A stretch of DNA of 51,291 nt from a virus. The translations under genes and the position numbers were made by a program. Numbering within the stretch: position 1 is the stretch's first letter; each line of letters begins with the position of its first letter. Location: positions 1 through 51,291 of the IMG/VR virus record IMGVR_UViG_3300050011_000335. The stretch is one strand, 5' to 3'. Positions 34,403-49,804 of this stretch are shown in pieces. The notes beneath the pieces were generated by a model. That model did not search any database. It worked only from the letters and a program-made list of their open reading frames with translations, and was not told where the DNA came from.

Positions 34403-37372
34403 TTAGCTAGCCGACTGTTGAACGGAACTAAGTGCCAATTCAATAGCCGCAAAATAAATACTAGTCGTGAGTTTAGCTTCCACATTTATAAAAACAGATG
34501 GAGCTGACAATTGAACGCTTGCGTCTTTAAACCCCAAAGGTGCATCACTGGAAGTAGTTACGATCTTCGTTCTTTTGTAGAAATCGAATCGTTGCTGTAG
34601 TGAACTCAAAATTGAAGCTGCCGATAAATCTGCAACAGATTTTCCAACAATTACGGTTTTAAGATACTGCCCCAAGTCTAAGGTAAGAATATCAGATAGA
34701 TAAACTGCCTGAATTGAGTTATAGACAAAGTTAGTATCCAAACCATAAGTCGTCTGATCCGAAACCCAAGGAATTCCGTTCGTATCCTGCGTAAATACGA
34801 GTAACCCAGCAGTCAACGCATCAGAAACATTATCTGGATCACCAGAATCATAACCAACTGGATCCTGAAATGAGACCACGTTCGCAAGATGGTTACAGAT
34901 GGACTTATAGAAACCACCTGATTGCATACCAGCTGCTACAGCCGCTCCATACCAAGGCAAGAACAACGTGTTAACTCCAGCAGAATTAACCTGAGTGACC
35001 TGCTGACAGGTAAGACCACAATGATAAGTAGCAAGACTCTGAGCTTGCGCTTTGCACTTAATATAGGTATCGTTGTAAGATAGAATAGCCATGCGATTAC
35101 GTTTCAATGTAGGAGTCGAATACTGAATACAATGAGATTTCAGCAATTCGTTAATCGCATCAATCGTGTAGGTAGAACTGGGATCCGTGTTACCAGCGAG
35201 AATGTCTTTCGTAGCATTTTGAGAAAACAGAGGAACGATAATATTAATCTGAATCCCAGCTAACTGAGCAACTACGTTAACGATATCAGCAGCCGAAGTA
35301 GCACCACGAGCGCCGCCTGACAAGTAAATCAGAATGCTTGGCTCAGGAAGCCCCGCTACAGCGGTAGGAATAAAATTCAATGCTGTAGAGGTGTTCATCA
35401 CCTGTTGGAATATGTAAGCTGAATCCTTAACTCGTCCCGGCTCATCGGTAGTAGAAGAAACGATTCCGATAGCCGTTACTTGATCAAGGGCTGAAGGAGG
35501 TAACTGAATAGCTGAAGGGCTAGCCGATGCAGAGTACCCAGGTTGAGAATTAATAAATGCGGCCAATTGGCTAATCGTGGTATATTGGGTTAGAGGAATT
35601 GAAAGATTTGTTCCACTTCCACCAACAACAGTAGTAGTCAAGGTCAAAACCCCAGCAACTAGACCGATGGTCATAGTCCCAGAAGTACCTACATACCCTA
35701 CAGACATAGCTATATTTGGGAATACATTTAAGACTTCGTTAACACCGGTAGTTGTATTAATAATTTGGACTTCAACACCAGGTTCTTGGCTAGAAACAGT
35801 CAGTCCCGTTATTAGGCCCAATGCGGCCAAATCTCCAGGAGTGGAATCAATCAATTCGAAAGATTTGCCCCAGCCACTACTATACATACGTCCAGAAACG
35901 GCAGAGAAAGCAATTGTTGCATCTCCCGTGCCAGTAATTTTAGTCAAAGTACCAGAACTGGAGGGATCCCCGCTTCCAGTAGCTTGCAAAGTAGTCCCAG
36001 CTGCGATGGTCTCCAAAACTGTGAAAGTCTGACCATTATTGGTATACGTAGCACCAGCCGTAGCATTAGCAGAAGTTACTGTAAACGTATATTGTGTCTC
36101 TGTGAGAATTACATTGTTTGAAAGTCCAACAGATGCTACAATTCCAACTGGAAGAACAACATTAAGTTCTGCAACCAATTCGGCAATAGTATTGAGGAGA
36201 GCCCCACCACCAGCATCATTTCTATGAATTGATCCACTATAAGTTCCTGGAGGAAAGCCGGTAATAGAAGTCCCAGGAGCAACACCCAAGTCACCAGTAA
36301 GAACTGTATTCCCAGTATTAGTGACCGCCAACGCGCCTAATACTGCAAAACTACTGGCAGCGCCTAACAAGGGTGCAGATTGAGCAGCAATATTGGTTGC
36401 AACGCCGATAGTAACTGCTCCAGTAAGGGCAATCATGCTACCATTAACAGTTCCACCACCGATTGAAATACTCGCATTTGCAAGAATATTACCATTGAAA
36501 GTATTAGCAGCACCAAGAGTTGCTGAGGTGCCGACCTGCCAATAAATATTTTCTGCAAGAGCGCCACCAGCAAGGGTGATAGTCGCACCGGCCCCAGTAG
36601 TAAGAGAGCTTCCAACTTGAACATAGAAAACGTCAGTAGGGCTACCACTAAAATTGAGATTGGCAGCTGCTGAAAGTGTAGCAGTCGAAGAAGCGGTATA
36701 GGTTCCTGCAGTAAACGTTTGGGAATCAAGAACGCCGCCCACAATGGTGGTTCCAGCTGGCATTCCCAAAATAGTGGCATACTCAGCATGAGCCGCAGCT
36801 TGCGCTGGAATAGAACCAACACTACTACTGAGAGTAACGAGATCGACAGCTCCACCGTTCAAACGAATAGAGAAAGTGGCACCATTCAAAACATCGCCAA
36901 ATGCTGGAACGGTATCACCAGTAACCTGGGGGGTAATTTCTGCATCAAGGGAAGTGATGGTATAGCTAAACAGATTTCCGCCAACACCCCAGTTAAGAGC
37001 GTCAAAAGTTCCATAATTGCCAACATTGGCAGCAACCAAGGCCGAAGCTTGAGTTCCTTTATTTGTCTTAACAATATAAATAGAAGAAGCGGTGCCTTTG
37101 ATATCTGGATCATTGCTAGGAGCCGACAATGCAGCAAAAGCGTCAACAATTGGACCAGAAGTATAAATAGCTCTAACCTGAGTCAAAGCCGTTGGTCCAA
37201 AAAAGTTATTAGCAAGTTTAAGGATGCTATAGTCTGGACCACCAGCTGCTTCACCCATGATAAGAACAACGCCGGAACTAGCCAAACCAGATGCGTTAGA
37301 AATTACCGTAGTGTTAACGTATGCGCCGGGAATGTTTGTATTAAGCCAGGGTGTGACAATTCTTTGCGACAT
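34403..37372 (-). CDS. tail sheath protein with a large inserted beta-solenoid domain, 989 aa
   Basis: The N-terminus (PWLNTNIPGAYVNTTVISNA) and C-terminal third (AYIFQQVMNTSTALNFIPTA, IWASN-free; SSLQQRFDFYKRTKIVTT) follow the layout of contractile sheath subunits, whose C-terminal domain begins with 'G-x-x-N-x-I' type segments and ends in a long helix and strand. It is roughly 400 residues longer than most. Residues about 186-388 look like a circularly permuted DUF3494 (ice-binding-type) domain: the half with TLTTGAG-like strands and IYWQVGTSATLGAANTFNGN comes first, the half with LGAASSFAVLGALAVTNTG and ITGFPPGTYSG second. A second insert (about 425-492, YTNNGQTFTV) recurs in the giant fibre. 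TAGGAGATATTAAA precedes the ATG. Confidence 0.85.
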   Translation of the reverse strand: MSQRIVTPWLNTNIPGAYVNTTVISNASGLASSGVVLIMGEAAGGPDYSILKLANNFFGPTALTQVRAIYTSGPIVDAFAALSAPSNDPDIKGTASSIYIVKTNKGTQASALVAANVGNYGTFDALNWGVGGNLFSYTITSLDAEITPQVTGDTVPAFGDVLNGATFSIRLNGGAVDLVTLSSSVGSIPAQAAAHAEYATILGMPAGTTIVGGVLDSQTFTAGTYTASSTATLSAAANLNFSGSPTDVFYVQVGSSLTTGAGATITLAGGALAENIYWQVGTSATLGAANTFNGNILANASISIGGGTVNGSMIALTGAVTIGVATNIAAQSAPLLGAASSFAVLGALAVTNTGNTVLTGDLGVAPGTSITGFPPGTYSGSIHRNDAGGGALLNTIAELVAELNVVLPVGIVASVGLSNNVILTETQYTFTVTSANATAGATYTNNGQTFTVLETIAAGTTLQATGSGDPSSSGTLTKITGTGDATIAFSAVSGRMYSSGWGKSFELIDSTPGDLAALGLITGLTVSSQEPGVEVQIINTTTGVNEVLNVFPNIAMSVGYVGTSGTMTIGLVAGVLTLTTTVVGGSGTNLSIPLTQYTTISQLAAFINSQPGYSASASPSAIQLPPSALDQVTAIGIVSSTTDEPGRVKDSAYIFQQVMNTSTALNFIPTAVAGLPEPSILIYLSGGARGATSAADIVNVVAQLAGIQINIIVPLFSQNATKDILAGNTDPSSTYTIDAINELLKSHCIQYSTPTLKRNRMAILSYNDTYIKCKAQAQSLATYHCGLTCQQVTQVNSAGVNTLFLPWYGAAVAAGMQSGGFYKSICNHLANVVSFQDPVGYDSGDPDNVSDALTAGLLVFTQDTNGIPWVSDQTTYGLDTNFVYNSIQAVYLSDILTLDLGQYLKTVIVGKSVADLSAASILSSLQQRFDFYKRTKIVTTSSDAPLGFKDASVQLSAPSVFINVEAKLTTSIYFAAIELALSSVQQSAS

Positions 37373-37682: not shown

Positions 37683-38291
37683 TTATCCCGGAAGCTTTGG
37701 TTTAGACATTTGGTGGATTTGGTCAAGTGTCTGTTCATGAGCACCCTTAGTAGGCGCGGCTTGCTGCATTCTTTGCGCATTGCCTTGCATACGCTCAGCA
37801 TTACCCTCTGGAGTTTTAAGGTGAGCTTCTGCCTGAGCTTGTCCGGCTGCTTGATAGGCGGGTACGGCTGATGTAGCGCCAGGATGAGGTTGATTTTCGC
37901 CTTTGTCCATCTCTTTGGCTTTTTGACTCTTTTTGTGCCTCATCCAACCTACAAACTTGGCTAGTTTAATATGGCCCTTCATACCGGCTTCTTGGCTTTC
38001 AGCGCCAGCATTTTCTTTTTCGTGATCTTCTACGGCGTGCTCTACTTCTTCACCTAACTCCGCATCTGCTTTTTCATCTGGATTCGCAATGGCTTCTTCA
38101 GATTTCCCCATTTTGGCTTTAATAGCGCCATCGATCTTATCCGCAGACTCTTCAGAATAGCCTTCTCTTTTAAGCTTGGAGTGAATTTTGGCCCAATCGC
38201 CTTTTGCGAGATTGCTAGACTTATAAAGCTCTTCAGCTTTAGCCAAAACCATCTGCCCAGCTTCTCTTGGAGTATATTTTTTATCAGACAT
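37683..38291 (-). CDS. KYTPxEA-type linker-rich protein, 202 aa
   Basis: The first 20 residues, MSDKKYTPREAGQMVLAKAE, match the starts of the next two genes upstream (38325-38651 and 38654-39298). A charged helical body follows (KIHSKLKREGYSEESADKID), then acid linkers (ELGEEVEHAVEDHEKENAGA) and the phrase MKGHIKLAKFVGWMRHKK, also found in the 38654 product as MKGHIKLAKFMGRM. The end is Gln/Ala/Pro-rich and disordered. It looks like a small internal or scaffold-like virion protein. The function is unknown. Confidence 0.6.
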   Translation of the reverse strand: MSDKKYTPREAGQMVLAKAEELYKSSNLAKGDWAKIHSKLKREGYSEESADKIDGAIKAKMGKSEEAIANPDEKADAELGEEVEHAVEDHEKENAGAESQEAGMKGHIKLAKFVGWMRHKKSQKAKEMDKGENQPHPGATSAVPAYQAAGQAQAEAHLKTPEGNAERMQGNAQRMQQAAPTKGAHEQTLDQIHQMSKPKLPG

Positions 38292-38308
38292 AGTTTGTCC
38301 CCATATAA

Positions 38309-38320
38309 GCTAAGATTGGC
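38309..38320 (-). promoter_or_regulatory. CCAATCTTA motif copy
   Basis: GCCAATCTTAGC in the gap after the stop of 38325-38651, about 20 bases upstream of the ATG at 38291. Confidence 0.45.
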
Positions 38321-38324
38321 GATA

Positions 38325-38651
38325 CTATTGTTTAGCTTTTCTCTTGTCCAAAAAAGACCTTAAATTTTCAATACTTGACTTCTTAATACCCTTCAACTCT
38401 TCATTTTTCCCAAAGAATACACTAGGTCTGTCCATCGGTTGTCCAGGTTTCTTAGCTTTTGCCGTCTTAACTACTGCTTGACTTCCCACTTTCATAGGAG
38501 ATCCAGTATTTCCATTTGTGGGACTAATCACGCCTTCAACCGGAGTAATAGAAGTAGGTTTAAGGCCACCCATAGCAGATTTGGTCAATTCCTCAGCTTT
38601 TTGAAGAATTTTGATAGCCACTTCTGTTGGGGTATACACTTTAGAGGACAT
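38325..38651 (-). CDS. KYTPxEA-type linker-rich protein, 108 aa
   Basis: Begins MSSKVYTPTEVAIKILQKAE, the second member of the family of three. The rest is Pro/Gly/Lys-rich (GGLKPTSITPVEGVISPTNG, KTAKAKKPGQPMDRPS) and ends in a basic helix (SSIENLRSFLDKRKAKQ). Mostly disordered. It starts two bases after the previous stop without a clear Shine-Dalgarno sequence, so coupling is likely. Confidence 0.6.
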   Translation of the reverse strand: MSSKVYTPTEVAIKILQKAEELTKSAMGGLKPTSITPVEGVISPTNGNTGSPMKVGSQAVVKTAKAKKPGQPMDRPSVFFGKNEELKGIKKSSIENLRSFLDKRKAKQ

Positions 38652-38653
38652 AT

Positions 38654-39298
38654 TTAGGGAAGATTTGGTTTGATTTTAGAACTTTGCATCATTCGACCAA
38701 TGGACTGTTGCTTTGCAGCCCCAGTATCACCTAGTCTAGCCATAGCTCCACCGGTAGAAACGCCTTCTTTAGACTGAGGATTGGGTTTTGTAGCAATACC
38801 GGCCTCATGACCAGTTTCAGCTTTATCTATTTGTCCTCTTTTAGCCTCCATTCGACCCATAAACTTAGCTAGTTTAATATGGCCTTTCATGGGAGTCTCG
38901 GCTTTACCGAAAGGATTGCCAATTTGATCATTAATGGTGGGTGAAGGAGGAGGTGGAGGAGCGGACATATCATCTTTGGCCATAGGTTCTGGGATGTTAG
39001 GTTTGGGCATAGCCCTTGAATGCATTAAAGTGCGTTTAGCCGCACTTTTAGCTGCATATTTAGAATCGTCTACATCTCGTGGGCTAGGGGAGAAGGTGCC
39101 CCCTGCCGGATCCACTCCCGCAGCATTCCTTATGTGGGAACCCATCGTACTAACACCTGGACCCGAACGCTTACTACTGAGATTGACTCCTCTTTCATGT
39201 CCAGTCTCAGCCTTAGCCAAACTAGACATTCCATGCAATTCTTGGACTTTAGCCAGGACGGCCATAGCTGCTTCAGCGGGAGTATATTTTTTAGACAT
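38654..39298 (-). CDS. KYTPxEA-type linker-rich protein, 214 aa
   Basis: Begins MSKKYTPAEAAMAVLAKVQE. The body is low complexity with two copies of 'KAETGHE' (about residues 29-36 and 157-164), a Pro-rich run (MSAPPPPPSPTINDQ) and MKGHIKLAKFMGRMEAKRGQ. Together with its two neighbours it forms a tandem paralogous set that differs mainly in linker content. A virion-internal or scaffold role is inferred from position only. Confidence 0.6.
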   Translation of the reverse strand: MSKKYTPAEAAMAVLAKVQELHGMSSLAKAETGHERGVNLSSKRSGPGVSTMGSHIRNAAGVDPAGGTFSPSPRDVDDSKYAAKSAAKRTLMHSRAMPKPNIPEPMAKDDMSAPPPPPSPTINDQIGNPFGKAETPMKGHIKLAKFMGRMEAKRGQIDKAETGHEAGIATKPNPQSKEGVSTGGAMARLGDTGAAKQQSIGRMMQSSKIKPNLP

Positions 39299-39314
39299 AT
39301 TTGATCACCATGGT

Positions 39315-39325
39315 GTTAAGATTGG
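39315..39325 (-). promoter_or_regulatory. CCAATCTTA motif copy
   Basis: CCAATCTTAAC immediately after the stop of 39326-40312 and 17 bases upstream of the ATG at 39298. Confidence 0.45.
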
Positions 39326-40312
39326 TTATTCTAGACTTTCTACAAAATTTTGGATCGTGGACCAGTTTACTGTGGTAAGATCCTCAAAGGTATCGTTTTT
39401 ATTACTAATTATCTTGAGACCGCCCGTAAATCCGTCCCCATTGCCAAGCCCAACACTTTCTATATAGCGATGTGGCTGATTCAACCACCTAGACTCAACT
39501 TGGCCAGTTAGATTAACTTCACGACTCCATATGACCTGTCCAGCATCGGAATAGTCAGGATTAGGGAATAGCTTACCTGAAGAGATCATGCTTTCGGCAT
39601 ATCCGTCTTTTTCAAGAAGTACCTGTCTATACCTAAGTAAACTATAAACAACAATTGACCATAACCACAAAGTCGTATTTTGGTCCATAGCATTACAGGT
39701 TATTTTATAGGTTTCGGTCATAAACGTATGACCAATTTTAGCTTCATAGGTTTGATACTGAGGTATAACGGCATAAGCGGCTGCGCTTAAAGTCAATCCG
39801 GTCATCAAATTTACCTGGTTCATCATAGTTACGCTTTGGATCACGTAACCATTACCAGTAACGGGATCCACTAGAACCTGTCCAGGAACGATCATACTAA
39901 TATTCACATCAGACGAGAAAGTGAACGCACCTGAAATAGGATCATATGAACCCGGAGTGGGTTTAATAAGGAATGGGATCGGCTTATTGATATCGTTTGG
40001 ATATAGAGTTACACTTTCAGTTGAAAGATCTCCCATGTGTTTCATTTCAGATTTTTCGTTACTGGTTCCCATTTCAATAACAACACAAGGAAATTCTATC
40101 TTGTCATCTCTCTCAGACATGAAAAAATTAATACGGTTATTGGCCAACCACTGTTTGCACGATTCTATTTGAGAACCATAAAACCTTCGCATGTATTCAT
40201 TAGCGACCGTGTCACCAAGAATGTCATTCAATAACCACGGATTCTTGGCAATGTCCTCTAAACCTAATGTAATTGCTGCCTTGATGCGCAGATCTCCCAA
40301 AAATAAGCTCAT
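39326..40312 (-). CDS. conserved virion protein of the neck/tail region, 328 aa
   Basis: The product starts SLFLGDLRIKAAITLGLEDI, has KIEFPCVVIEMGTSNEKSEM near residue 75, a beta middle (GSYDPISGAFTFSSDVNISM) and an alpha/beta end (TLWLWSIVVYSLLRYRQVLL). I recognise the arrangement 'D-x-R-I-x-A-A-I-x-L-x-L-x-D-I ... V-P-C-(I/V)-x-I-x-x-G' from large phages, where it sits upstream of the sheath gene. That position suits a tail-completion, terminator or sheath-connector protein. No motif settles it. Confidence 0.6.
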   Translation of the reverse strand: MSLFLGDLRIKAAITLGLEDIAKNPWLLNDILGDTVANEYMRRFYGSQIESCKQWLANNRINFFMSERDDKIEFPCVVIEMGTSNEKSEMKHMGDLSTESVTLYPNDINKPIPFLIKPTPGSYDPISGAFTFSSDVNISMIVPGQVLVDPVTGNGYVIQSVTMMNQVNLMTGLTLSAAAYAVIPQYQTYEAKIGHTFMTETYKITCNAMDQNTTLWLWSIVVYSLLRYRQVLLEKDGYAESMISSGKLFPNPDYSDAGQVIWSREVNLTGQVESRWLNQPHRYIESVGLGNGDGFTGGLKIISNKNDTFEDLTTVNWSTIQNFVESLE

Positions 40313-40315
40313 GAG

Positions 40316-41131
40316 TTACCTACCTTGATATTTCTGCAATATTTGCGGAAGCCATACATTTGCCCATTGATCTTCTGCCCAAGTCTTCGTTTCTGGAAAT
40401 ATACCGGCTGCCTCTATAGCGTCTCTCATCCACTTACCATCGCCTTCCATAGCTGTTCTAAACGTAGTCATTGTTCTTTGTATTTTCCCAGTTTTTGGAT
40501 GCGGAGTTTGATAAATAGTGAGCCCAAATAGTCTAGGAGTAGTACCCTTACCATAGTCTTTACTGGGTATATCAAAGGAATGGAGCTTACCAAGTCTAGG
40601 ACTTCCCGTTTTGGAATCGATTTCTAACTTTCTGAGTGGAACGTTTTTGGCTTTTAAGAACGTTTTTATATCTTTGATACGCTCTTCTTGTTCTGCAAGT
40701 CTTGTAGGATTAAAGCTCTCAGATGACTTCCCTTGTTGAAAAGGTATAACTCGATATTTTTTACCCTTATTTGGTCCGTTCTGAACTTCTTTTATTTTGC
40801 CCTTACTTCCTTCTCTTTCTGTATGGAGCAATCCACCAGGAGGACCTTTCATATCCCACGCTTTTCTTCCCTCTTCTATATTGGCTGCATCTTTACTTAA
40901 AGTTATTTCCCAAAGATAATCGGTTATCTGTACAGCATGACTGAGATTGGCTTCATATTTTTCACGATCCCAGTCCGGAAGTTTTTTCTTGGTCTCTTCT
41001 AACATATGAAGATGTGCGGATTTGGTCAATCCCTCAACACCATTTTTAATATCCTTAGTAACTTCTTTAGTGAAATTTTCTAAGTATTGGGTAAGAGAAG
41101 AGATATCGATATCGACTTTAAAGTCCCCCAT
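40316..41131 (-). CDS. virion-assembly type protein, 271 aa
   Basis: AAAAGGTTGAT precedes ATG 41131. The N-terminal helix (SSLTQYLENFTKEVTKDIKN, then LTKSAHLHMLEETKKKLP) resembles the opening of HK97 gp10-like tail-completion proteins. A basic, Gly/Lys-rich middle follows (GPNKGKKYRVIPFQQGK) and a conserved-looking end (TTFRTAMEGDGKWMRDAIEA). Candidate roles are tail completion or a head-tail joint. Confidence in any of these is low. Confidence 0.55.
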   Translation of the reverse strand: MGDFKVDIDISSLTQYLENFTKEVTKDIKNGVEGLTKSAHLHMLEETKKKLPDWDREKYEANLSHAVQITDYLWEITLSKDAANIEEGRKAWDMKGPPGGLLHTEREGSKGKIKEVQNGPNKGKKYRVIPFQQGKSSESFNPTRLAEQEERIKDIKTFLKAKNVPLRKLEIDSKTGSPRLGKLHSFDIPSKDYGKGTTPRLFGLTIYQTPHPKTGKIQRTMTTFRTAMEGDGKWMRDAIEAAGIFPETKTWAEDQWANVWLPQILQKYQGR

Positions 41132-41132
41132 A

Positions 41133-41345
41133 TCAACCTTTTGGCGGCTTCACAGGAACCCCAGAAGGCCCCATTACACGCCCCTCTTTCATATTAATGA
41201 ATCTAACTACCCCATTGTTGTCGGTGACCTTCATTTGGCCCTTACCATTAATACCGTGCTCTGGGATTGGATCCTTAGCGACGTGGGTAGTAGTATGGCT
41301 AGTTGGAAGCTTCGAAGCCGAGGGTAGTCCTGCTACCCCACCGCT
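41133..41345 (-). CDS. -1 frame extension of the mCpol-like gene (70 codons, no own start)
   Basis: The frame is open from within the end of 41333-43408 to TGA at 41135-41133 and reads as genuine protein (KLPTSHTTTHVAKDPIPEHG, MKVTDNNGVVRFINMKEG, VMGPSGVPVKPPKG). It has no ATG, GTG or TTG before an internal ATG at about 41229, which would discard the conserved-looking first half. The frame relation and the slippery heptamer at 41351-41345 indicate translation by -1 frameshifting, giving a 758-residue product. An independent 32-residue protein from the internal ATG (AAGGGCCAA upstream) is the alternative. Confidence 0.65.
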   Translation of the reverse strand, partial: SGGVAGLPSASKLPTSHTTTHVAKDPIPEHGINGKGQMKVTDNNGVVRFINMKEGRVMGPSGVPVKPPKG

Positions 41346-41351
41346 TTTGGG
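41322..41351 (-). promoter_or_regulatory. -1 ribosomal frameshift signal (C CCA AAA plus hairpin)
   Basis: In the zero frame the codons are GAC CCA AAA GCG GTG GGG TAG. C-CCA-AAA (41351-41345) fits X-XXY-YYZ. After the 6-base spacer GCGGTG, GGGTAG (41338-41333) pairs with CTACCC (41327-41322) around CAGGA, placing a hairpin over the zero-frame stop. Confidence 0.7.
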
Positions 41352-43408
41352 TCCTGAGAACCCTCTTGAGGTGCTGCCTGTGGAGGTCCTGCTGCTGGGC
41401 TCTCTTGTGGAGCAGCTTGTGGGGGTTGTTCCTGACCAGCTGCCATATTAGGCTCTAGACCAAGAAGCTTACAAAGCTCAATCATAGATTTTAACATTTG
41501 GATACAAGAATTATATAAAGGCTGATTTTGTTCTTTGGTTGCTTCTAGGGATGCCTTGTTGGCCTTGAATCCAGCAAGAGTCTGGCCTACCATATCCAAT
41601 ACTTGTTGTTTTTTCTGTTCGTTTGCATGGTCGTCTAAGCCACCCTGGAGAATGGAGGACATATCAGGTTCATCTTGTCCCAATTCTCCATTTTGTCCTG
41701 GAATCTGAGCATCTTGTCCCAATTCTCCATTTTGTCCCGATTCTTGTCCCGATTCCTCACTCTTAGGACAATTGGGACAATTACAATCATGCGTCTGTTC
41801 TTGAAAGTCTTTATCGGAATCAGAAATATCGTTTTTCTGAGCATCTCCAAAGTTATCAGTAACAGCGGTTCCTTCTTCCATCTGATCGCCTTGAGGCATT
41901 TCCGTATTGTCAATTTTCTTGGCAGCTTGAGCTGGAGTCTGAGCGCCCGTGCCAGGTTCCTGATCCAACAAGTCCAAAACTTCTTCAGCAGTCTCATGAC
42001 CCTGTAAATTTGGATCACCTTGACCAGTTTGTCCTGGCTCATTTTCAACAGCATCAGAATACATTTCTTGACACTGTGGACAATCATCCGGATGTTGAGC
42101 GCCTTGGTCTTCTACTGCCAAATTGCTTTGATCTTTTTGATTAGCAACGCAATCAGGGCAGTTACAGATGTGATCTTGTGGCGCTTCAGGATTGGCCTGA
42201 GCTTCAGTAATATTTTCAGTTTGACAATAAGGGCAATCGTCGATACCACCAGTATTTTGTTGTGAGGCATCGTATTCCTTGCAAGCTGGGCAGTCATGCA
42301 TTCCAGCCGTTCCATCTGCGTTTTCTTCTGCATCTAAATCTTGGCAATAAGCACAATCATCTGTACGATTATCTTCGTTATCGGCGCAATAAGGACACGG
42401 ATCATTAGTGTTTGGTTCAGTATGTGGAGCGTGCTTACCTTCTTCAGATTTATGTAACTCACAAACGTATTGTTCAGATTTTCCCATTTTTGTCCCCACT
42501 TCGATAGAAGACAGATCGTCATGGAGTTTTTTTGCTTTTTCTCCTGCTTCTTTTTGTGCTTTGGCATGCCCTTCATCATTTACGAAGAATTGGTCGGTAC
42601 GATCTGAGGGATGCTTAAGATGCGTTTCGTAAGCACTATGCATGGCATCTGCTTTATGGTGTCTATTAGAAATCTCTACATTTCCTTTTTTATTACTCCA
42701 TCCAGCATTTTGAGGGTCAAATGCCTGTGCCTGACTTCTATGTTTTGAGGCTATATGTCCATGGACATAAGAGGGAACTTTCAGCATTTCTTCATGGCTA
42801 ATAGTGGGCTTAGTTTTACCACCCGTAACTCTAGTTAGGGTATCAACTGGGCGTTTGGTTACAACTTTACCCTCTTTAGCGTTTGTAGATAAAGCTTTTG
42901 TGTCACTTTTATGTAGATCGCACAACATATTTTCCGCCTTTGCTAAGTAGGCTTCACTCAGCTTATATTCATCTGGAGTGGCACGTTTTTCACGAACCCT
43001 CCTTTTAGCTTTTTGGATATCTTTTTTTAGTTTATTGTCAAAATAAACAATACGGTCTTTTCCCCTGAGCTTAGCTACTAGAAGTGAGGTACCAGCTTCG
43101 GAAAGAGATTTTCCAACACCAACAGAAATGGTATAGCCAAAAGATTTTTCAACACTCTTTCTAAGGGCTTCTAGTTTTTTTAAAGCATCTTGTGGAACTG
43201 CTGCAGTAAACTCATCTCCACCGCCAGACACTTTAACTCCGCTTACATCCTTACACCAATGCAAAATAAAATCTTGTGCCGCATCAATTCTATTGGAAAT
43301 CTTATGAAGCTCATCGACATCATTAGCAAGCACGGCTCTGCCAACTTTTTTCCCGACCCCATCCCCATCTGCAGCTATGTAAAACATCCCAGGCTTAATT
43401 TTTTCCAT
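41333..43408 (-). CDS. mCpol/GGDEF-like domain fused to a zinc-knuckle linker protein, 691 aa
   Basis: AAGGAGAAGCA precedes ATG 43408. Residues about 8-124 match a minimal nucleotide-polymerase (mCpol, Palm/GGDEF-type) domain: FYIAADGDGVGKKVGRAVL with metal-binding Asp14/Asp16, then VKVSGGGDEFTAAVP (62-67), GYTISVGVGKSLSEAG and AKLRGKDRIVYFD. In this fold two-metal catalysis joins nucleotides into cyclic or linear oligomers. A basic helical region (about 125-330) follows. Seven CxxC knuckles (about 338-547: CPYC, CAYC, CPAC, CPYC, CPDC, CPQC, CPNC) are joined by acidic linkers, and repeats such as GQNGELGQD and a helical end follow. Short 'KAE/KSE' words recur. The product is probably packaged or assembly-associated, given its neighbours. 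The end carries a -1 frameshift signal. Confidence 0.75.
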   Translation of the reverse strand: MEKIKPGMFYIAADGDGVGKKVGRAVLANDVDELHKISNRIDAAQDFILHWCKDVSGVKVSGGGDEFTAAVPQDALKKLEALRKSVEKSFGYTISVGVGKSLSEAGTSLLVAKLRGKDRIVYFDNKLKKDIQKAKRRVREKRATPDEYKLSEAYLAKAENMLCDLHKSDTKALSTNAKEGKVVTKRPVDTLTRVTGGKTKPTISHEEMLKVPSYVHGHIASKHRSQAQAFDPQNAGWSNKKGNVEISNRHHKADAMHSAYETHLKHPSDRTDQFFVNDEGHAKAQKEAGEKAKKLHDDLSSIEVGTKMGKSEQYVCELHKSEEGKHAPHTEPNTNDPCPYCADNEDNRTDDCAYCQDLDAEENADGTAGMHDCPACKEYDASQQNTGGIDDCPYCQTENITEAQANPEAPQDHICNCPDCVANQKDQSNLAVEDQGAQHPDDCPQCQEMYSDAVENEPGQTGQGDPNLQGHETAEEVLDLLDQEPGTGAQTPAQAAKKIDNTEMPQGDQMEEGTAVTDNFGDAQKNDISDSDKDFQEQTHDCNCPNCPKSEESGQESGQNGELGQDAQIPGQNGELGQDEPDMSSILQGGLDDHANEQKKQQVLDMVGQTLAGFKANKASLEATKEQNQPLYNSCIQMLKSMIELCKLLGLEPNMAAGQEQPPQAAPQESPAAGPPQAAPQEGSQDPKAVG

Positions 43409-44306
43409 TGCTTCTCCTTAGGGTCTCAAGAAGCATAAAAATATTGTCCTCGGTCCAATTACGTGAAAATTTTAAGCGCACACCATCTTCGGATTTTTTA
43501 ATCCATATTTTAGAGCCCATATTTTCTCCAAAACACAGACAACCGCTAAAACTTGAATCTCCAAAAATTGTCTTGCCACAAGAATCGCAATCAATCGATT
43601 CCGACTTTGACATTTCCACATGATGCTCTTTAGGCTTTTTCTTACGAGCTATGAAATCTTTGAGAGGAGAGCCCTTTTTAGGAGCGGCTTCTTTTTTAGT
43701 GATATCCTCAGGCTTAATTTCAAGTGGGGTATGTACTGGAACGGGAGTTGGCGGTTCTTGCACTTTAATAGTCTCATTCAATTTGGCCATCATCATTTTG
43801 TGGATAGCTTCACGCTGAGCCAATTTGTCCTCAACCACCTTACCAACCAATGAATGGAGTTCCATCCTTTCATCAATTAGTTTCTGGACTTTTCTGTCGA
43901 TATTTTCCGATTCTTTCCCAGGCTTAGAAAGCTCTTCTAAATCGTACAACTCAAATGTGGACAAGAGAATAATTCCCAAACCAGGAATCGACCTATTCAT
44001 AAAACTATAGACTAGCTTGTTGTCACTATAAACCGATCCAGTATAATCATCAGCAGCATTCTTATTGAGGCGAATATAGGCGACTTTACCAAAAGGCAAT
44101 TTTATGTCTTTATGGGAGTTGATTTCCATAGGAGACAGCTCGCTAATTAGCATAGCCATCACAGCTCTAGGAACCACCTTCAAACCAATTCGAATTTCTT
44201 CTGGATCCAATACGCTGTTACTGCCGATCTTATAAAGATCTGCTGACTTAGCAAGAGTTCCTAAAAACTCGTCATCTAAGATGGTATTAAGTAGCAAATG
44301 GGCCAT
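43395..44306 (-). CDS. virion-region protein with C-terminal zinc ribbon domain, 303 aa
   Basis: I use ATG 44306 (MAHLLLNTILDDEFLGTLAK), one base after the upstream stop; a TTG further up is in frame but lies inside that gene. Residues about 1-160 form a globular domain. A Pro/Lys-rich linker (EEPPTPVP-like, KKGSPLKDFIARKKKPKEHH) leads to CDSCGKTIFGDSSFSGCLCF and then FSRNWTEDNIFMLLETLRR. This end matches a small phage family with a 'CxxC ... F-x-G-C-x-C-F-G' ribbon that I have seen as a stand-alone protein, so the gene is likely a fusion. It overlaps the mCpol gene by 14 bases. Confidence 0.6.
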   Translation of the reverse strand: MAHLLLNTILDDEFLGTLAKSADLYKIGSNSVLDPEEIRIGLKVVPRAVMAMLISELSPMEINSHKDIKLPFGKVAYIRLNKNAADDYTGSVYSDNKLVYSFMNRSIPGLGIILLSTFELYDLEELSKPGKESENIDRKVQKLIDERMELHSLVGKVVEDKLAQREAIHKMMMAKLNETIKVQEPPTPVPVHTPLEIKPEDITKKEAAPKKGSPLKDFIARKKKPKEHHVEMSKSESIDCDSCGKTIFGDSSFSGCLCFGENMGSKIWIKKSEDGVRLKFSRNWTEDNIFMLLETLRRSNGKN

Positions 44307-44307
44307 A

Positions 44308-44757
44308 TTAACTTTGCGTGACGTAAGGGCCGGTTTCTTGAACAATCCAGGTTGGGTCTTCCATTATATAAACTAAAAGAGTTGCTGCAGAGGTAATAAC
44401 GTATTGATTATTGCTCATAGACAGATAAGTCCAAGCATTAGGGGGGCACGGAACGCCAACATTACCAGAAGCATCAATAGCTCCAGGAGCCAAAGTAACA
44501 ATAGTGCTTCCACCAATTACAACCGATCCTACAGCACCAGCATTGTTATAAACTGCAAGATTTAGGCCTAAAAGAGGAAGGGCTGTTCTTGTAGTAGGGG
44601 TGGTCGTCCAGGTAGTAGATGAAAGAGGAATTGGCAAGAGCCTAGGTCCAACCGTTAAAGTCTTTTGGCCACCAGATGCCGGGTTATACTCTATAGAGTC
44701 AATTTGACTAGGATCTTGTAGAAATTTAATATCTATTGCACGGTTATTTTTCGCCAT
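44308..44757 (-). CDS. small beta-rich virion protein, 149 aa
   Basis: Thr/Pro/Gly/Val-rich (TLTVGPRLLPIPLSSTTWTT, VGSVVIGGSTIVTLAPGAID) and ending WIVQETGPYVTQS. The composition suggests an Ig-like or jelly-roll decoration protein of capsid or tail. No motif. The start has a weak ribosome binding site (GGGGACCTT), and a CAATCTTAC motif lies in the preceding gap. Confidence 0.6.
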   Translation of the reverse strand: MAKNNRAIDIKFLQDPSQIDSIEYNPASGGQKTLTVGPRLLPIPLSSTTWTTTPTTRTALPLLGLNLAVYNNAGAVGSVVIGGSTIVTLAPGAIDASGNVGVPCPPNAWTYLSMSNNQYVITSAATLLVYIMEDPTWIVQETGPYVTQS

Positions 44758-44780
44758 AAGGTCCCCTAAAGGTTATATCA

Positions 44781-44790
44781 GTAAGATTGC
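44781..44790 (-). promoter_or_regulatory. CCAATCTTA-type motif copy (GCAATCTTAC)
   Basis: Eight of nine match, between the stop of 44790-45752 and the ATG at 44757. Confidence 0.35.
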
Positions 44791-45752
44791 TAAGTTTGTC
44801 CGTCTGGAATCCCATCGGCGGTAAAAGAGATCATGTCAACGCTAATAGCTCCTGGAGAGGGCTTAATAGTGTCCAAAGGCTCCTGGACAGCTCTTTTGGG
44901 AGTTGTGGAGGCAGATTGATTCTTAGGATCGCCTCTAGCTTGACTGTGGTAGACGTACTCCCTCTGAATTACAGCGTAATAAGCTAATCTCTCAGGAGTC
45001 CTGACACCATTCTCCGTAATATTGGTCATTCGGGTCTCTTTCGGCAATTCTACAATATAGTGATATGCTTTATAGAGATAACGTATTGAATATACTCGAC
45101 CTTTTCCAGTCTCGGGATCAATTCCTGGACTTTTACCACCTGGCAACCAATTAATGTTGCCATCAGAAGTTATGCAAAAATCAAGCCCTTGTGTATAAGA
45201 AATATTCCTACTATCAATAATAGGTATCTCTAACTCAATTATGGGGAACATAGGCACATTAGTACCAACTTCGTAGGTCATTTTTTGGTAATTTGACACC
45301 TTGACATTGGCTTTGGGATCGGACACATAAATGCGATCACCGGGAGCCATATAGATACGGTTACCGTCATCAACAGGAGCAGTGTTTACGGATCCAGCGA
45401 CAGACTTGGTCTTATTGTAGAAACGAGGGAGAATAAGTCTGCTAACGGATGGATCTACAATTCCCCCGTCAGTTCTTTCCTTCTTGGTGGTATTGTCAGT
45501 CTCACATCCCGTAAAAGTGCCAGCATATACATAAAGCATTCCATTTGAAGTCAGGACATCCAACCCATCACGACGATAATCGCCACGATCTTTTAATCCA
45601 ATAGGAGAAGGCATAGCTTTCCAGTGGCAGTAGTCAATTCCTTGGGAAGTAACAAAATCGTCGTCAAAAAGCAAATTAAAGCTGTGTTGTGTCAGAGGAT
45701 TCCATTGATTAATATCTTGAATCTGCACTCCATGTGGGGGCCTATCACTCAT
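44790..45752 (-). CDS. conserved large-phage virion protein, 320 aa
   Basis: CCTAGGAGATTTAT precedes ATG 45752. The product is beta-rich and has phrases I associate with a conserved late protein of large phages: GIDYCHWKAMPSPIGLKDRG, YRRDGLDVLTSNGMLYVYAG, GLDFCITSDGNINWLPGG, and RVYSIRYLYKAYHYIVELP. It probably takes part in the neck or head-tail interface. An endonuclease gene is inserted directly before it and overlaps its start by eight bases. Confidence 0.65.
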   Translation of the reverse strand: MSDRPPHGVQIQDINQWNPLTQHSFNLLFDDDFVTSQGIDYCHWKAMPSPIGLKDRGDYRRDGLDVLTSNGMLYVYAGTFTGCETDNTTKKERTDGGIVDPSVSRLILPRFYNKTKSVAGSVNTAPVDDGNRIYMAPGDRIYVSDPKANVKVSNYQKMTYEVGTNVPMFPIIELEIPIIDSRNISYTQGLDFCITSDGNINWLPGGKSPGIDPETGKGRVYSIRYLYKAYHYIVELPKETRMTNITENGVRTPERLAYYAVIQREYVYHSQARGDPKNQSASTTPKRAVQEPLDTIKPSPGAISVDMISFTADGIPDGQT

Positions 45753-46431
45753 ATAAATCTCCTAGGAAGTCTAAGCAACGTTTAACACAGTCTTCCTTAT
45801 CAATATTCCAATCCTGTTCTTTAATATGAAGAATTCGAATTTTTTTTGATAAAAAATAATCATCTTTAATTTGATGATAATTTGCGATATCCTCTTCTGG
45901 CCAATATTTTCTATTCCTACTTTTTCTTAATCCCTTAAAAGAATGCCAATATTCGCCATCAAATTCTATCCCCTTATTTCCAATTCTAATATCTAAATCA
46001 AAGCCTTTTATGTGAGGCTTTCCTTCTATTTTAACTTTCACATCCCTAAATTTTTTAGCATCGGGGTAAGCAAGTTTAATTAAAGACAACAGTTCTTTTT
46101 CTGGTAAAGAAGTTCCTTTAGGAGATTTCATATGTTTACAGACTATATCCATTACCCTCATTCTGTTAGCAGCTTGATAAGCGGAATTATTACTTAATTC
46201 AAACTCTCTACGACTTTTATATAGATATGCTATTTCTTGAACTTTTTCAAGAGACCAATAAGTAAAGACGGTCTCCATATGAGAACAAATTTGATCCATT
46301 ATTCCCCTTCTTTGTGCGGCAGCCTGAGCATTCCTACTCCCTATTTGAAATTCCAAACGAGTCCTATATCTTAAAGCTTCTAGGGCCACTTCTTCATTGG
46401 TCCATTTATGTGGCTTGGCCCTTTTACTCAT
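45745..46431 (-). CDS. Vsr-type (EDxHD-like) homing endonuclease, 228 aa
   Basis: ATG 46431 has GGAGAAAACTA upstream; a longer in-frame start has none. Two N-terminal repeats of about 40 residues (KWTNEEVALEALRYRTRLEF with GIMDQICSHM, and YWSLEKVQEIAYLYKSRREF with VMDIVCKHM) are DNA-reading repeats seen in phage endonucleases. The nuclease domain has DLDIRIGNKGIEFDGEYWHS, then YHQIKDDYFLSKKIRILHIK, the Asp/Glu-Asp-x-x-x-His arrangement of very-short-patch-repair-fold homing enzymes. It cuts DNA to promote its own spread. It sits snugly between two late genes with overlaps on both sides. Confidence 0.8.
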   Translation of the reverse strand: MSKRAKPHKWTNEEVALEALRYRTRLEFQIGSRNAQAAAQRRGIMDQICSHMETVFTYWSLEKVQEIAYLYKSRREFELSNNSAYQAANRMRVMDIVCKHMKSPKGTSLPEKELLSLIKLAYPDAKKFRDVKVKIEGKPHIKGFDLDIRIGNKGIEFDGEYWHSFKGLRKSRNRKYWPEEDIANYHQIKDDYFLSKKIRILHIKEQDWNIDKEDCVKRCLDFLGDLYE

Positions 46432-46783
46432 TAGTTTTCTCCAAACACATCTTGGATATTTCACACAACTTGCTATCCGTACTAGCATGTAGAGTAGACA
46501 GACCTTTGACTACTTCGTTTATACTCATTTTTCTTTTCAAATCTTCTAGTCGTCTTTCTAATCTAAAACCGCTAATGCTATTATTGGCATTAACCCTGAT
46601 ATCGGCAATACAACCAACTCCGCTTCTAATCATTCGCTCGATCTGATCGACAAAATGGTCAATCCTGGGATCTAAGGGGTCATAGCTAACCAGAATCTCT
46701 TTAGCCCCAACTATTTGGTGCTCCAATGACATGTTTGGATCAAATTCATATTCGTGATCGGTACAAATAATTTTAACGCACAT
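46424..46783 (-). CDS. hypothetical late protein, 119 aa
   Basis: The product (CVKIICTDHEYEFDPNMSLE, AKEILVSYDPLDPRIDHFVD, then basic RLERRLEDLKRK) mixes short strands with helices and has three Cys. No family recognised. Its start is preceded by GAGGATCTTATAAT rather than a Shine-Dalgarno sequence. Its end overlaps the endonuclease start by eight bases. Confidence 0.55.
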   Translation of the reverse strand: MCVKIICTDHEYEFDPNMSLEHQIVGAKEILVSYDPLDPRIDHFVDQIERMIRSGVGCIADIRVNANNSISGFRLERRLEDLKRKMSINEVVKGLSTLHASTDSKLCEISKMCLEKTNE

Positions 46784-46784
46784 A

Positions 46785-47264
46785 TTATAAGATCCTCACA
46801 CCCTTAAGGCCAGAACTAAGAGCTTTCTCAGAAACAGCTGCGCTAATAGGGGTCACAAACTCTCTAGGAGAATCCAAATGACGAATTACAAGATGGTTGT
46901 TTTCGATAGTGCCATTCGCAGATCCAACCTTAATACTTTGCTTAGTGACAAAGAATTGGACATCATTACCGTTTTGGATAGAATAAACGTCATGACCCGA
47001 TTTACGAAGGGTGTCGGTTAAGAAATGTGAATGGCTTTCGGCGCTGAGCTTAAGCCCTTCACTTTTCATGATCATTGGTTGGAAGTTCGGGAAACGTTGT
47101 TCAATGGTATAACATAGGATAGCTTGATGACTAGCTGCTCCCAGAACTTGATCTCCCATAACTGCCAAATTCAGTCCACCCTTAGTTTTGGTGAGATTGA
47201 CCGGCTTACCGTCCAACATTCCAAAAGGTTCAGTTGATGCAATATCGTTTTCAAGTATTTTCAT
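46785..47264 (-). CDS. hypothetical late protein, 159 aa
   Basis: A globular alpha/beta protein (LNLAVMGDQVLGAASHQAIL, HFLTDTLRKSGHDVYSIQNG, VQFFVTKQSIKVGSANGTIE). It contains one PMIMKSEGLKL word of the recurrent K-[S/A]-E type seen in neighbouring virion proteins. No family recognised. It starts one base after the small gene at 47266. Confidence 0.55.
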   Translation of the reverse strand: MKILENDIASTEPFGMLDGKPVNLTKTKGGLNLAVMGDQVLGAASHQAILCYTIEQRFPNFQPMIMKSEGLKLSAESHSHFLTDTLRKSGHDVYSIQNGNDVQFFVTKQSIKVGSANGTIENNHLVIRHLDSPREFVTPISAAVSEKALSSGLKGVRIL

Positions 47265-47265
47265 A

Positions 47266-47421
47266 TTATTTATCCAACTCTTTCTTTATTTCTTTTTTAG
47301 CTTTTTGTCTTTCTAAAGTTTTAGAGTTCTTTTTGACAGGCATGCATAGGTAACAGTTGCACCAATAACCGCCATTGATCATATAGTTTTTACGTTTTGC
47401 GTTTGAACCATATGGTTTCAT
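47266..47421 (-). CDS. small basic Cys protein, 51 aa
   Basis: ATG 47421 lies one base after the stop of the 793-residue gene (TAATATG). The product MKPYGSNAKRKNYMINGGYW is followed by CNCYLCMP and a very basic helix (KKNSKTLERQKAKKEIKKEL). The three close Cys suggest a metal knuckle, the rest nucleic-acid contact. Filling this gap exactly, with tight junctions on both sides, supports it as a gene. Confidence 0.65.
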   Translation of the reverse strand: MKPYGSNAKRKNYMINGGYWCNCYLCMPVKKNSKTLERQKAKKEIKKELDK

Positions 47422-47422
47422 A

Positions 47423-49804
47423 TTATTTCTTATCCGAGAACAGAGTTCTCAATTCCTTATTATCGTCAATATATTTCTTAAGAGAGTCTCCGCTAAGAGC
47501 CAAAGCTTTACTAAGCGACTCGCTTTTATCCAATAACTGCTGACCAGTGGTAGTTAGCTTATTTCTCAGGAATTGGGCTTTCCCCTCATCTGCTTTATCT
47601 TGGGAAGTGGGGTTTTTAGGTCCGTCCATAGTCGTATGATGTGTGTTGTTACCACCCATAGAGTTATGGTGGCCATTAATAGTATAATTACCAACCTTAA
47701 CACGATATTGTCCTTGTCCATCTTGAGCACCAGCTTTGTGAGGAGTAAATACAGATTCGGCCTTAACTCCAGGAAGCTTACTTAGCCCAGTCACGAATTG
47801 GTGTAAATGACCAGATGCAGCATTAGCATGGGAACCTATAAGCATAGCTCCAGCAACTGCTGCATTCTTAAGGGCACCTTTTTCAAGAGGTTTCTCAGCT
47901 TTACTAATAGAAGATTCGCTTTTCTGAGTAGGAATGTAAGGACTATGAGCTTTTTTATGAGCATCTTCTTTGCCCCATTCAAACTCTTTAGGTTTTTCTG
48001 GAGACGGTTGTCCTAATTTCCAATCTTTATTTTTTTCAGAATATCTTCTCATATGTCCAGAATAGTTACGAGCGTGTCCTTCTATGGCATCCAAGCGTAC
48101 ATTCTTTTTTGCCCTTTTTTCTTCGGGATTTGGTGAACCAATGAGGCGATCCTGATGTCCAGCATGAAGCCCGGCTGCATAAGCATGATCTTCATGGGTT
48201 AAATTTTTATGTTCTGGATGATCATGAGAATCGTAGATATTGTTGCCAGATGGAGCTTTTCCTATGATCTTGTTTTTAGAATGTTCTTTACTTCCGCCCC
48301 AACCGACAGGTTTATTTGGGACAACTTTAGCTTCAACTGACCTAATTCGTTCAGTTGATGGCAGTTTTTCTTCAGCCTTCGCCACTTTCTCAGGCAGCTT
48401 CTTTCCTTTAGTTGCCTCATCCCATTCATGTACTCCAGCTTCTCCACCCAACGCTTCTTTTCCTGCTTGAGTGTGACCCCAACGTCTTTGGGCTTCTGAA
48501 ACGAAAGGCTTCATGAGAGGATTTTGACCAAGAATTTCTTCAGATTTTACAACAAACTTATTTGCAGCGATATCTTTAGCTGAATTTCTCATATTTTGCC
48601 AAGAATTTTTCAATCTTTGATGCGATTCTTTGGGAAGAAGGTTTCGACTTGTCTTATCATGAACAGCATCTCTTACATGATTAACAATCTCTTCCTTCCA
48701 TTGCTGATTACTTAATGGATTTTTACCCGAATCACTATATCCTCTATTTTTAAGAGATTGACTTATATGCTTTACATCCTCGGGATGAATATGGGACATT
48801 AAGGTGTCCAAAACATGGTTTCCTTTTTCATCCCCATGTTTGTATCTGACTTGATTCATAGTATGATGAAAGGCTTCATGTTCTTTATTGATCTGCGGAT
48901 TCCTATTTGGAGCGCTATTTTTATGAGCATCTAAATTTATAGATGGAGTAGATCCCTTTCCAGCGTTGTTTACCATGGTAGTACCTGCACTTTTGGGACT
49001 CAATGCTTTATTAGATACTGCATTCGATACCTTTGTTTTATGTTCTGAAGAAATTTGAGGCATAACCTTATTCGTCCAGCTACGACCAACTATATTCCCC
49101 TGTCTCTCAGTTGCAACATTGGCTACTTCTTGATCTGGTCTGGAACTAGTACCAAGTTTAGGGAAAGTAATTCTTCCTTGATCTTTTTTTAATTCAATTT
49201 CATTACTTTCAGATTTTGTAACAGGAATATTTGCCTTAGCTGTAAAGTCACTTTCATCAGGAACTGTTGGCTCAGTGGTATCTGGCTTATGATGATAAGT
49301 TTTTAAGACTTTGGGACCCTTTTTTAACTCTGCCGGACCAAATTCAATACCGGCCTCATGCGCCGTTTTAGCTCCACTATTTTTAATATTTTGCCAAGTA
49401 TTTTGGTCCAATGAAATATGGGGAGTCCATTCTGTCGTAGATGGAAGACCCATATGGGCAAATTTACCATTATGCTCTTTTAACTTATCTGCAGAATTGC
49501 CTTTTAGCTTGAGAACAAAAACGTCGTTTCCAAAACGATCTTTGAATTGTCCTGGCTCTATTTGGGTATTTTTGGCATCGGGAGGATTCAAGGGAAGGTG
49601 TTGGGCAAGTCCATGAATGGAGTGTGGATGGTCTTTTTGATGATCAAAATCTTTAATAGTAGAGTGATAAGAAATACCATTATCGGGACGACTATCTTGG
49701 CCGTTGATCTTAACTGGATGTCCGAGCAATATTCCTTCATTGGCCATAGCGGCGTAGTCTTCGGGAGATTCGGCTTTGAGGAGATTAGGCAACTTGTTCT
49801 TCAT
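47423..49804 (-). CDS. 2H-phosphoesterase-like domain fused to HExxH and linker regions, 793 aa
   Basis: Residues about 28-172 look like a 2H phosphoesterase: GISYHSTIKDF (His47-x-Thr49) and EWTPHISLDQ (His129-x-Ser131), separated by strands (DVFVLKLKGN), the active-site pattern of LigT/ThpR and of the anti-CBASS nuclease Acb1. Near residue 309 HEAFHHTMNQV is a HExxH zinc site, with a possible third ligand in WKEEIVNHVRD (371-372). Later regions are His/Lys-rich (GHMRRYSEKNKDW, YTINGHHNSMGGNNTHH) and disordered, with repeated 'KAE/KSE' words. The product looks like a polyprotein-type virion or injected protein. Catalysis is unproven. It starts after a weak ribosome binding site. Confidence 0.7.
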   Translation of the reverse strand: MKNKLPNLLKAESPEDYAAMANEGILLGHPVKINGQDSRPDNGISYHSTIKDFDHQKDHPHSIHGLAQHLPLNPPDAKNTQIEPGQFKDRFGNDVFVLKLKGNSADKLKEHNGKFAHMGLPSTTEWTPHISLDQNTWQNIKNSGAKTAHEAGIEFGPAELKKGPKVLKTYHHKPDTTEPTVPDESDFTAKANIPVTKSESNEIELKKDQGRITFPKLGTSSRPDQEVANVATERQGNIVGRSWTNKVMPQISSEHKTKVSNAVSNKALSPKSAGTTMVNNAGKGSTPSINLDAHKNSAPNRNPQINKEHEAFHHTMNQVRYKHGDEKGNHVLDTLMSHIHPEDVKHISQSLKNRGYSDSGKNPLSNQQWKEEIVNHVRDAVHDKTSRNLLPKESHQRLKNSWQNMRNSAKDIAANKFVVKSEEILGQNPLMKPFVSEAQRRWGHTQAGKEALGGEAGVHEWDEATKGKKLPEKVAKAEEKLPSTERIRSVEAKVVPNKPVGWGGSKEHSKNKIIGKAPSGNNIYDSHDHPEHKNLTHEDHAYAAGLHAGHQDRLIGSPNPEEKRAKKNVRLDAIEGHARNYSGHMRRYSEKNKDWKLGQPSPEKPKEFEWGKEDAHKKAHSPYIPTQKSESSISKAEKPLEKGALKNAAVAGAMLIGSHANAASGHLHQFVTGLSKLPGVKAESVFTPHKAGAQDGQGQYRVKVGNYTINGHHNSMGGNNTHHTTMDGPKNPTSQDKADEGKAQFLRNKLTTTGQQLLDKSESLSKALALSGDSLKKYIDDNKELRTLFSDKK

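Follow-up and report, generated by a model that had tools for sequence, protein, structure and literature searches.

A probable programmed -1 ribosomal frameshift at the end of a phage structural-cluster gene that usually carries an mCpol domain

Overview

A gene for an mCpol-like protein, on the minus strand of a 51,291-base IMG/VR virus record (the whole stretch analysed, hereafter the window), very probably encodes two proteins by a genuine programmed -1 ribosomal frameshift with a three-part, dnaX-like signal; from comparative sequence analysis we put the probability of this reading at about 0.9. Computation established the signal and its conservation, as well as selection acting on the extension frame. 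The slip signal would comprise an internal Shine-Dalgarno 8-12 nt 5' of the site, a C_CCA_AAR heptamer and a hairpin about 5-7 nt 3' of it (Table 1). We infer both the slippage and its efficiency: most ribosomes would be expected to terminate at the zero-frame TAG, giving 691 aa, and in a fraction of them tRNA-Pro (CCA to CCC) and tRNA-Lys (AAA to AAA) would re-pair one base back, giving a 758-aa form that ends in a conserved, predicted beta-hairpin module. A minority of lineages would make the same join at CCCCACAG, most likely by a -2 shift, and others have the module fused in frame.

Table 1. Features of the gene, its junction and the following gene in the window
Feature	Coordinates	Strand	Remarks
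Zero-frame ORF, 691 aa	41333..43408	-	mCpol, Cys-rich linker and helical block; C-terminus ...DPKAVG, then stop
mCpol (minimal CRISPR polymerase) domain, residues 10-122	43043..43381	-	PF18182; PDB 9mnr/9nwn; L021 fold
Helical block, residues 581-653	41450..41668	-	Conserved, whole or partial in every lineage examined; helices predicted in L021
Internal Shine-Dalgarno-like CAAGAGGG	41361..41368	-	9 nt 5' of heptamer; dG -6.0
Putative slippery heptamer C_CCA_AAA	41345..41351	-	CCCAAAR in 14/14 -1 lineages
Putative stimulatory hairpin GGGTAG-CAGGA-CTACCC	41322..41338	-	6-nt spacer; zero-frame TAG (41335-41333) inside
-1 frame extension, 72 codons including re-read CCC AAA, plus TGA	41133..41351	-	
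Next gene, 271 aa	40316..41131	-	Starts 1 nt past extension stop; Mx1 homologue

The junction in the window

The minus-strand junction reads ...CAG GAC CCA AAA GCG GTG GGG TAG.... The CCCAAAA heptamer lies exactly where the original prediction placed it (41351-41345, in X_XXY_YYZ register), as do the 6-base spacer (GCGGTG, 41344-41339) and the six-pair hairpin over the zero-frame TAG, whose stem pairs GGGTAG with CTACCC (41338-41333 and 41327-41322). The -1 frame, given as 70 codons, is open to a TGA at 41135-41133; its 72 codons with the re-read CCC AAA amount to 70 new residues, and 688 + 70 yields the proposed 758-residue fusion. The original prediction does not mention the Shine-Dalgarno-like GAGGG at 41365-41361.

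Taken alone, the window's signal is not beyond chance. Its Shine-Dalgarno dG is -6.0, against -9 to -11.5 in most relatives, and 8% of the windows of the gene are as good. The 50-nt fold is no more stable than shuffled sequences (z -0.22), although an equally good hairpin 5-7 nt past a position is found at only 2.4% of positions. Over the 18 lineages that recode, however, the signal is far beyond chance, as set out below.

Relatives and shift modes

Scanning viral and genome contigs gave 22 distinct lineages, the window and 21 further, which together make up a family of large, uncultivated relatives of Myxococcus phage Mx1 whose gene usually carries mCpol. In two lineages the contigs were binned with a bog MAG of Deltaproteobacteria. 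The extension is reached by a -1 shift in 14 of the 22 (the window and 13 further, in the same register), the site being either CCCAAAA or CCCAAAG. Another four use the other frame, at CCCCACAG, and in the remaining four (L021, L026, L033 and L037) mCpol, helical block and extension form a single in-frame ORF. At the junctions of these last four there is no CCCAAAR, CCCCACAG or GGAGG/AGGAG, which makes them a natural negative control. The conservation of heptamer, hairpin and both frames, named in the original prediction as its check, is thus seen in the relatives, and the -1 reading is supported. In some lineages the site differs and the shift is probably -2.

All of these sequences come from metagenomic contigs or a MAG, and recoding might be mimicked by gene decay or by an indel from sequencing or assembly. 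Such an origin is extremely improbable: the CCCAAAR junction is common to 14 diverged lineages, some of them seen in two assemblies (L001/L002, L003/L007, L004/L005), purifying selection on the extension is strong, and the in-frame junctions have no such signal. We consider indel or decay refuted by the comparative data.

Components of the signal

In nine of the ten full-length -1 genes the in-register CCCAAAR is unique to the shift site, and the zero-frame stop always follows within 1-9 codons. A Shine-Dalgarno-like element stands 8-12 nt 5' of the site and is strong in most recoding lineages; in 14 of the 18 no other window of the gene equals it, the weaker elements being those of the window, L023, L034 and L020. 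The downstream hairpin is present in all 18 and starts 5-7 nt past the site in 17, the exception being L029, in which the stem begins 9-10 nt past it. Fisher combination of hairpin placement across the 18 gives p ~7e-19, a value that is overstated because the lineages share ancestry and are not fully independent. Between L028 and L031 the stem has also undergone a compensatory G-C to A-U change (GCCGATAGG/CCTATCGGC against GCCAATAGG/CCTATTGGC).

Could the frames be joined by transcriptional slippage rather than on the ribosome? CCC is followed by A7 in L029 and by A6 in L001, as such slippage would favor, but most sites have only 3-4 A. Runs of that length are too short for polymerase slippage. 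The geometry of internal Shine-Dalgarno and hairpin, moreover, fits ribosomes, and on these two grounds we rejected transcriptional slippage, which has very little probability left. On the ribosomal reading, the A7 of L029, where the hairpin also starts later, means that the shift there may be at A_AAA_AAA.

At CCCCACAG the join could in principle be made by a +1 or a -2 shift. Both spacings in this group equal those of the -1 group (Shine-Dalgarno 11-12 nt, hairpin 6 nt), and two bases back the first two pairs are kept in both codons (CCA to CCC, CAG to CAC). Since the spacings match and re-pairing is better at -2, we disfavor +1 and regard a -2 tandem slip as most likely.

The extension

The extensions of the closest relatives are 68-78% identical to the window's; across the 22 lineages the range is about 45-78%. 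Pairwise dN/dS in the extension frame, where computable, is 0.05-0.2 (two pairs are saturated at synonymous sites), and differences concentrate at third positions of the -1 frame, with the reverse in the other two frames. These comparisons indicate that the extension frame is under purifying selection. The extension is predicted to be a beta-hairpin; modelled alone it has a pLDDT of 74. It has no Pfam or PHROGs match and no convincing PDB fold match, and neither the whole protein nor the extension matched anything in annotated phages.

The extension might instead be an independent small gene with its own or a coupled start codon, the heptamer being coincidental. There is an internal ATG at about 41234 in the window, an ATG overlaps the zero-frame stop in L003 (TAATG), and the upstream GGAGGG could serve initiation. 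But the -1 frame of the window has no ATG, GTG or TTG before that internal ATG, just as had been claimed, and most -1 lineages have none before the conserved core (the window, L001, L004, L006, L022, L024, L025, L028 and L029). Conservation starts well upstream of the internal ATG, and L001, L004 and others have Lys in place of its Met. In none of the relatives found is the extension a separate gene, and in four it forms one ORF with the upstream protein. A separate start codon, largely refuted by the start-codon and in-frame-fusion evidence, was rejected, and an independent gene is very unlikely.

The mCpol domain and the rest of the protein

The label mCpol-like given to the N-terminus is well founded: PF18182 matches with E 9e-16, above the family cut-off, and PDB 9mnr with E 6e-8. 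In the model of L021, an in-frame relative, a confident palm domain (TM 0.85 to 9mnr, OptS) is followed by a long low-confidence linker, the helical block and the C-terminal beta-hairpin. The closest solved structure to the mCpol domain is that of OptS of Panoptes, in which mCpol is the synthase (PMC12657218, PMC12657230). D11, D13 and D62 are invariant in 17 phage members and, by alignment to 9nwn, match the active-site aspartates, including the equivalent of D57; the D57A change inactivates mCpol (PMC12657230). The domain is a genuine mCpol, and the CRISPR-polymerase-like cyclase is apparently intact. No OptE/2TM-beta effector gene was recognised in the searched part of the neighboring genes in the window.

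The signal was originally taken to control the tail of a putative signalling enzyme. That is only partly apt, since L003/L007, on a 166-kb contig without an mCpol match, lacks the mCpol region and keeps the helical block and the frameshift signal. The signal accordingly belongs to the C-terminal module (helical block and extension) and not to mCpol. L003:5623-6990 retains the helical block, the frameshift and a similar start region upstream, with mCpol cleanly missing.

Genome context

The mCpol gene directly precedes the 271-aa gene, which is followed by a predicted tail terminator (weak Pfam match) and the sheath; sheath and candidate tube lie further downstream. Searches with the sheath and with the 271-aa neighbor both led to Myxococcus phage Mx1, where the neighbor has a homologue (E 1e-13). 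At the equivalent position Mx1 has a gene (WNM70340.1) whose mCpol match is weak and degenerate and whose match to the extension is not significant. A literature search on Mx1 found nothing.

Several other features of this region were recorded. Residues 189-323 of the window's tail sheath homologue (34403-37372) match Ice_binding-like (PF11999). Proteins around the mCpol gene (37683-49804, minus-strand genes) contain the tripeptide K[SA]E more often than expected: for example, it occurs 8 times in 47423-49804, where 1.1 would be expected, and 4 times in the mCpol protein, where 0.8 would be. Mx1 proteins show a similar excess (for instance L039:10799-11671, 4 against 0.5). The tripeptide may be a motif for capsid targeting or for a prohead protease. 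The protein of 47423-49804 has an N-terminal HSTIK...HISL pattern which gives the impression of a 2H-phosphoesterase-like domain, and no Pfam match at E 0.1. In Mx1 a separate gene annotated 'nucleotide cyclase' (L039:9174-9905), with a GGDEF-like motif (RNGGDEF), is in the capsid gene cluster.

Are two products needed?

On the tree of the lineages the modes are interleaved, -1, probable -2 and in-frame changing repeatedly. The in-frame L021 and L033/L037 sit within well-supported clades containing shifting members; the number of changes is not fixed, as several deeper branches are poorly supported. In-frame lineages do without the short form, which means that a ratio of two products is not always needed. 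This variation suits a reading in which shifting is real but the ratio has no function: the extension would have landed out of frame by recombination or an indel, slippage would have been selected merely for expression and only the long form would matter, much like the indifference described for phage Ig-like extensions (PMC5009743). Against this, a single indel gives an in-frame fusion, yet deeply diverged lineages have kept Shine-Dalgarno, heptamer and hairpin together, and the stop always lies close behind the site. We treat a functionless ratio as a real possibility, at somewhat less than even odds.

Our best guess, offered tentatively, is that the long form serves as a minor virion or assembly form of a structural-cluster protein. 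A more elaborate and rather improbable version is that the frameshift sets the share of a phage Cas10-like cyclic-nucleotide synthase that is given a C-terminal virion-targeting module; a fixed number of copies, carried in the particle and injected, would then flood host cyclic-nucleotide immunity (CBASS, Panoptes) or act as its decoy, and the short form would act or assemble elsewhere.

Whatever its role, a different gene family here keeps the complete three-part signal over deep divergence; the switching between -1, probable -2 and in-frame joins is a natural experiment on why recoding persists; and an apparently intact CRISPR-polymerase-like cyclase is encoded inside a phage structural gene cluster. 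In the literature searched, including the mCpol papers, we found neither this frameshift nor an mCpol gene in a phage structural cluster described.

Comparison with known systems

The closest precedents are the frameshifts of phage tail chaperones and of Ig-like extensions on coat and tail proteins, the two settings in which phage frameshifting is best known. The tail assembly chaperone genes G/GT of lambda, Mu and HK97 resemble the present case in their place in a structural cluster and in adding a C-terminal part near the zero-frame end. The direction of their shift differs between phages (-1, -2 or +1; PMC5009743). The mCpol gene, however, precedes a predicted tail terminator instead of lying between tail tube and tape measure, its product has a Cys-rich linker and an mCpol enzyme domain, and no similarity to the tail chaperone G/T families was found by PHROGs or Pfam. 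Ig-like C-terminal extensions (of T3, A2, A118 and PSA coat or tail proteins) are likewise modules reached by -1, by another direction (+1) or in frame (PMC5009743); here the module is a short, conserved and predicted beta-hairpin, carried by something other than a coat or tail tube protein.

With Panoptes OptS/mCpol (PDB 9mnr, 9nwn; PMC12657218, PMC12657230) the phage protein shares the mCpol fold and the conserved active-site aspartates, whereas its gene is phage-borne, in a structural gene cluster and fused to a long C-terminal region. The signal has the same three parts as that of E. coli dnaX, with a Shine-Dalgarno about 10 nt 5', a heptamer, a 3' stem-loop and the -1 direction (PMC5009743, PMC3711429). 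The genes are unrelated, the heptamers differ (A_AAA_AAG in dnaX, C_CCA_AAR here), and the shift leads to a shorter product in dnaX whereas in the phage mCpol gene it would lead to a longer one.
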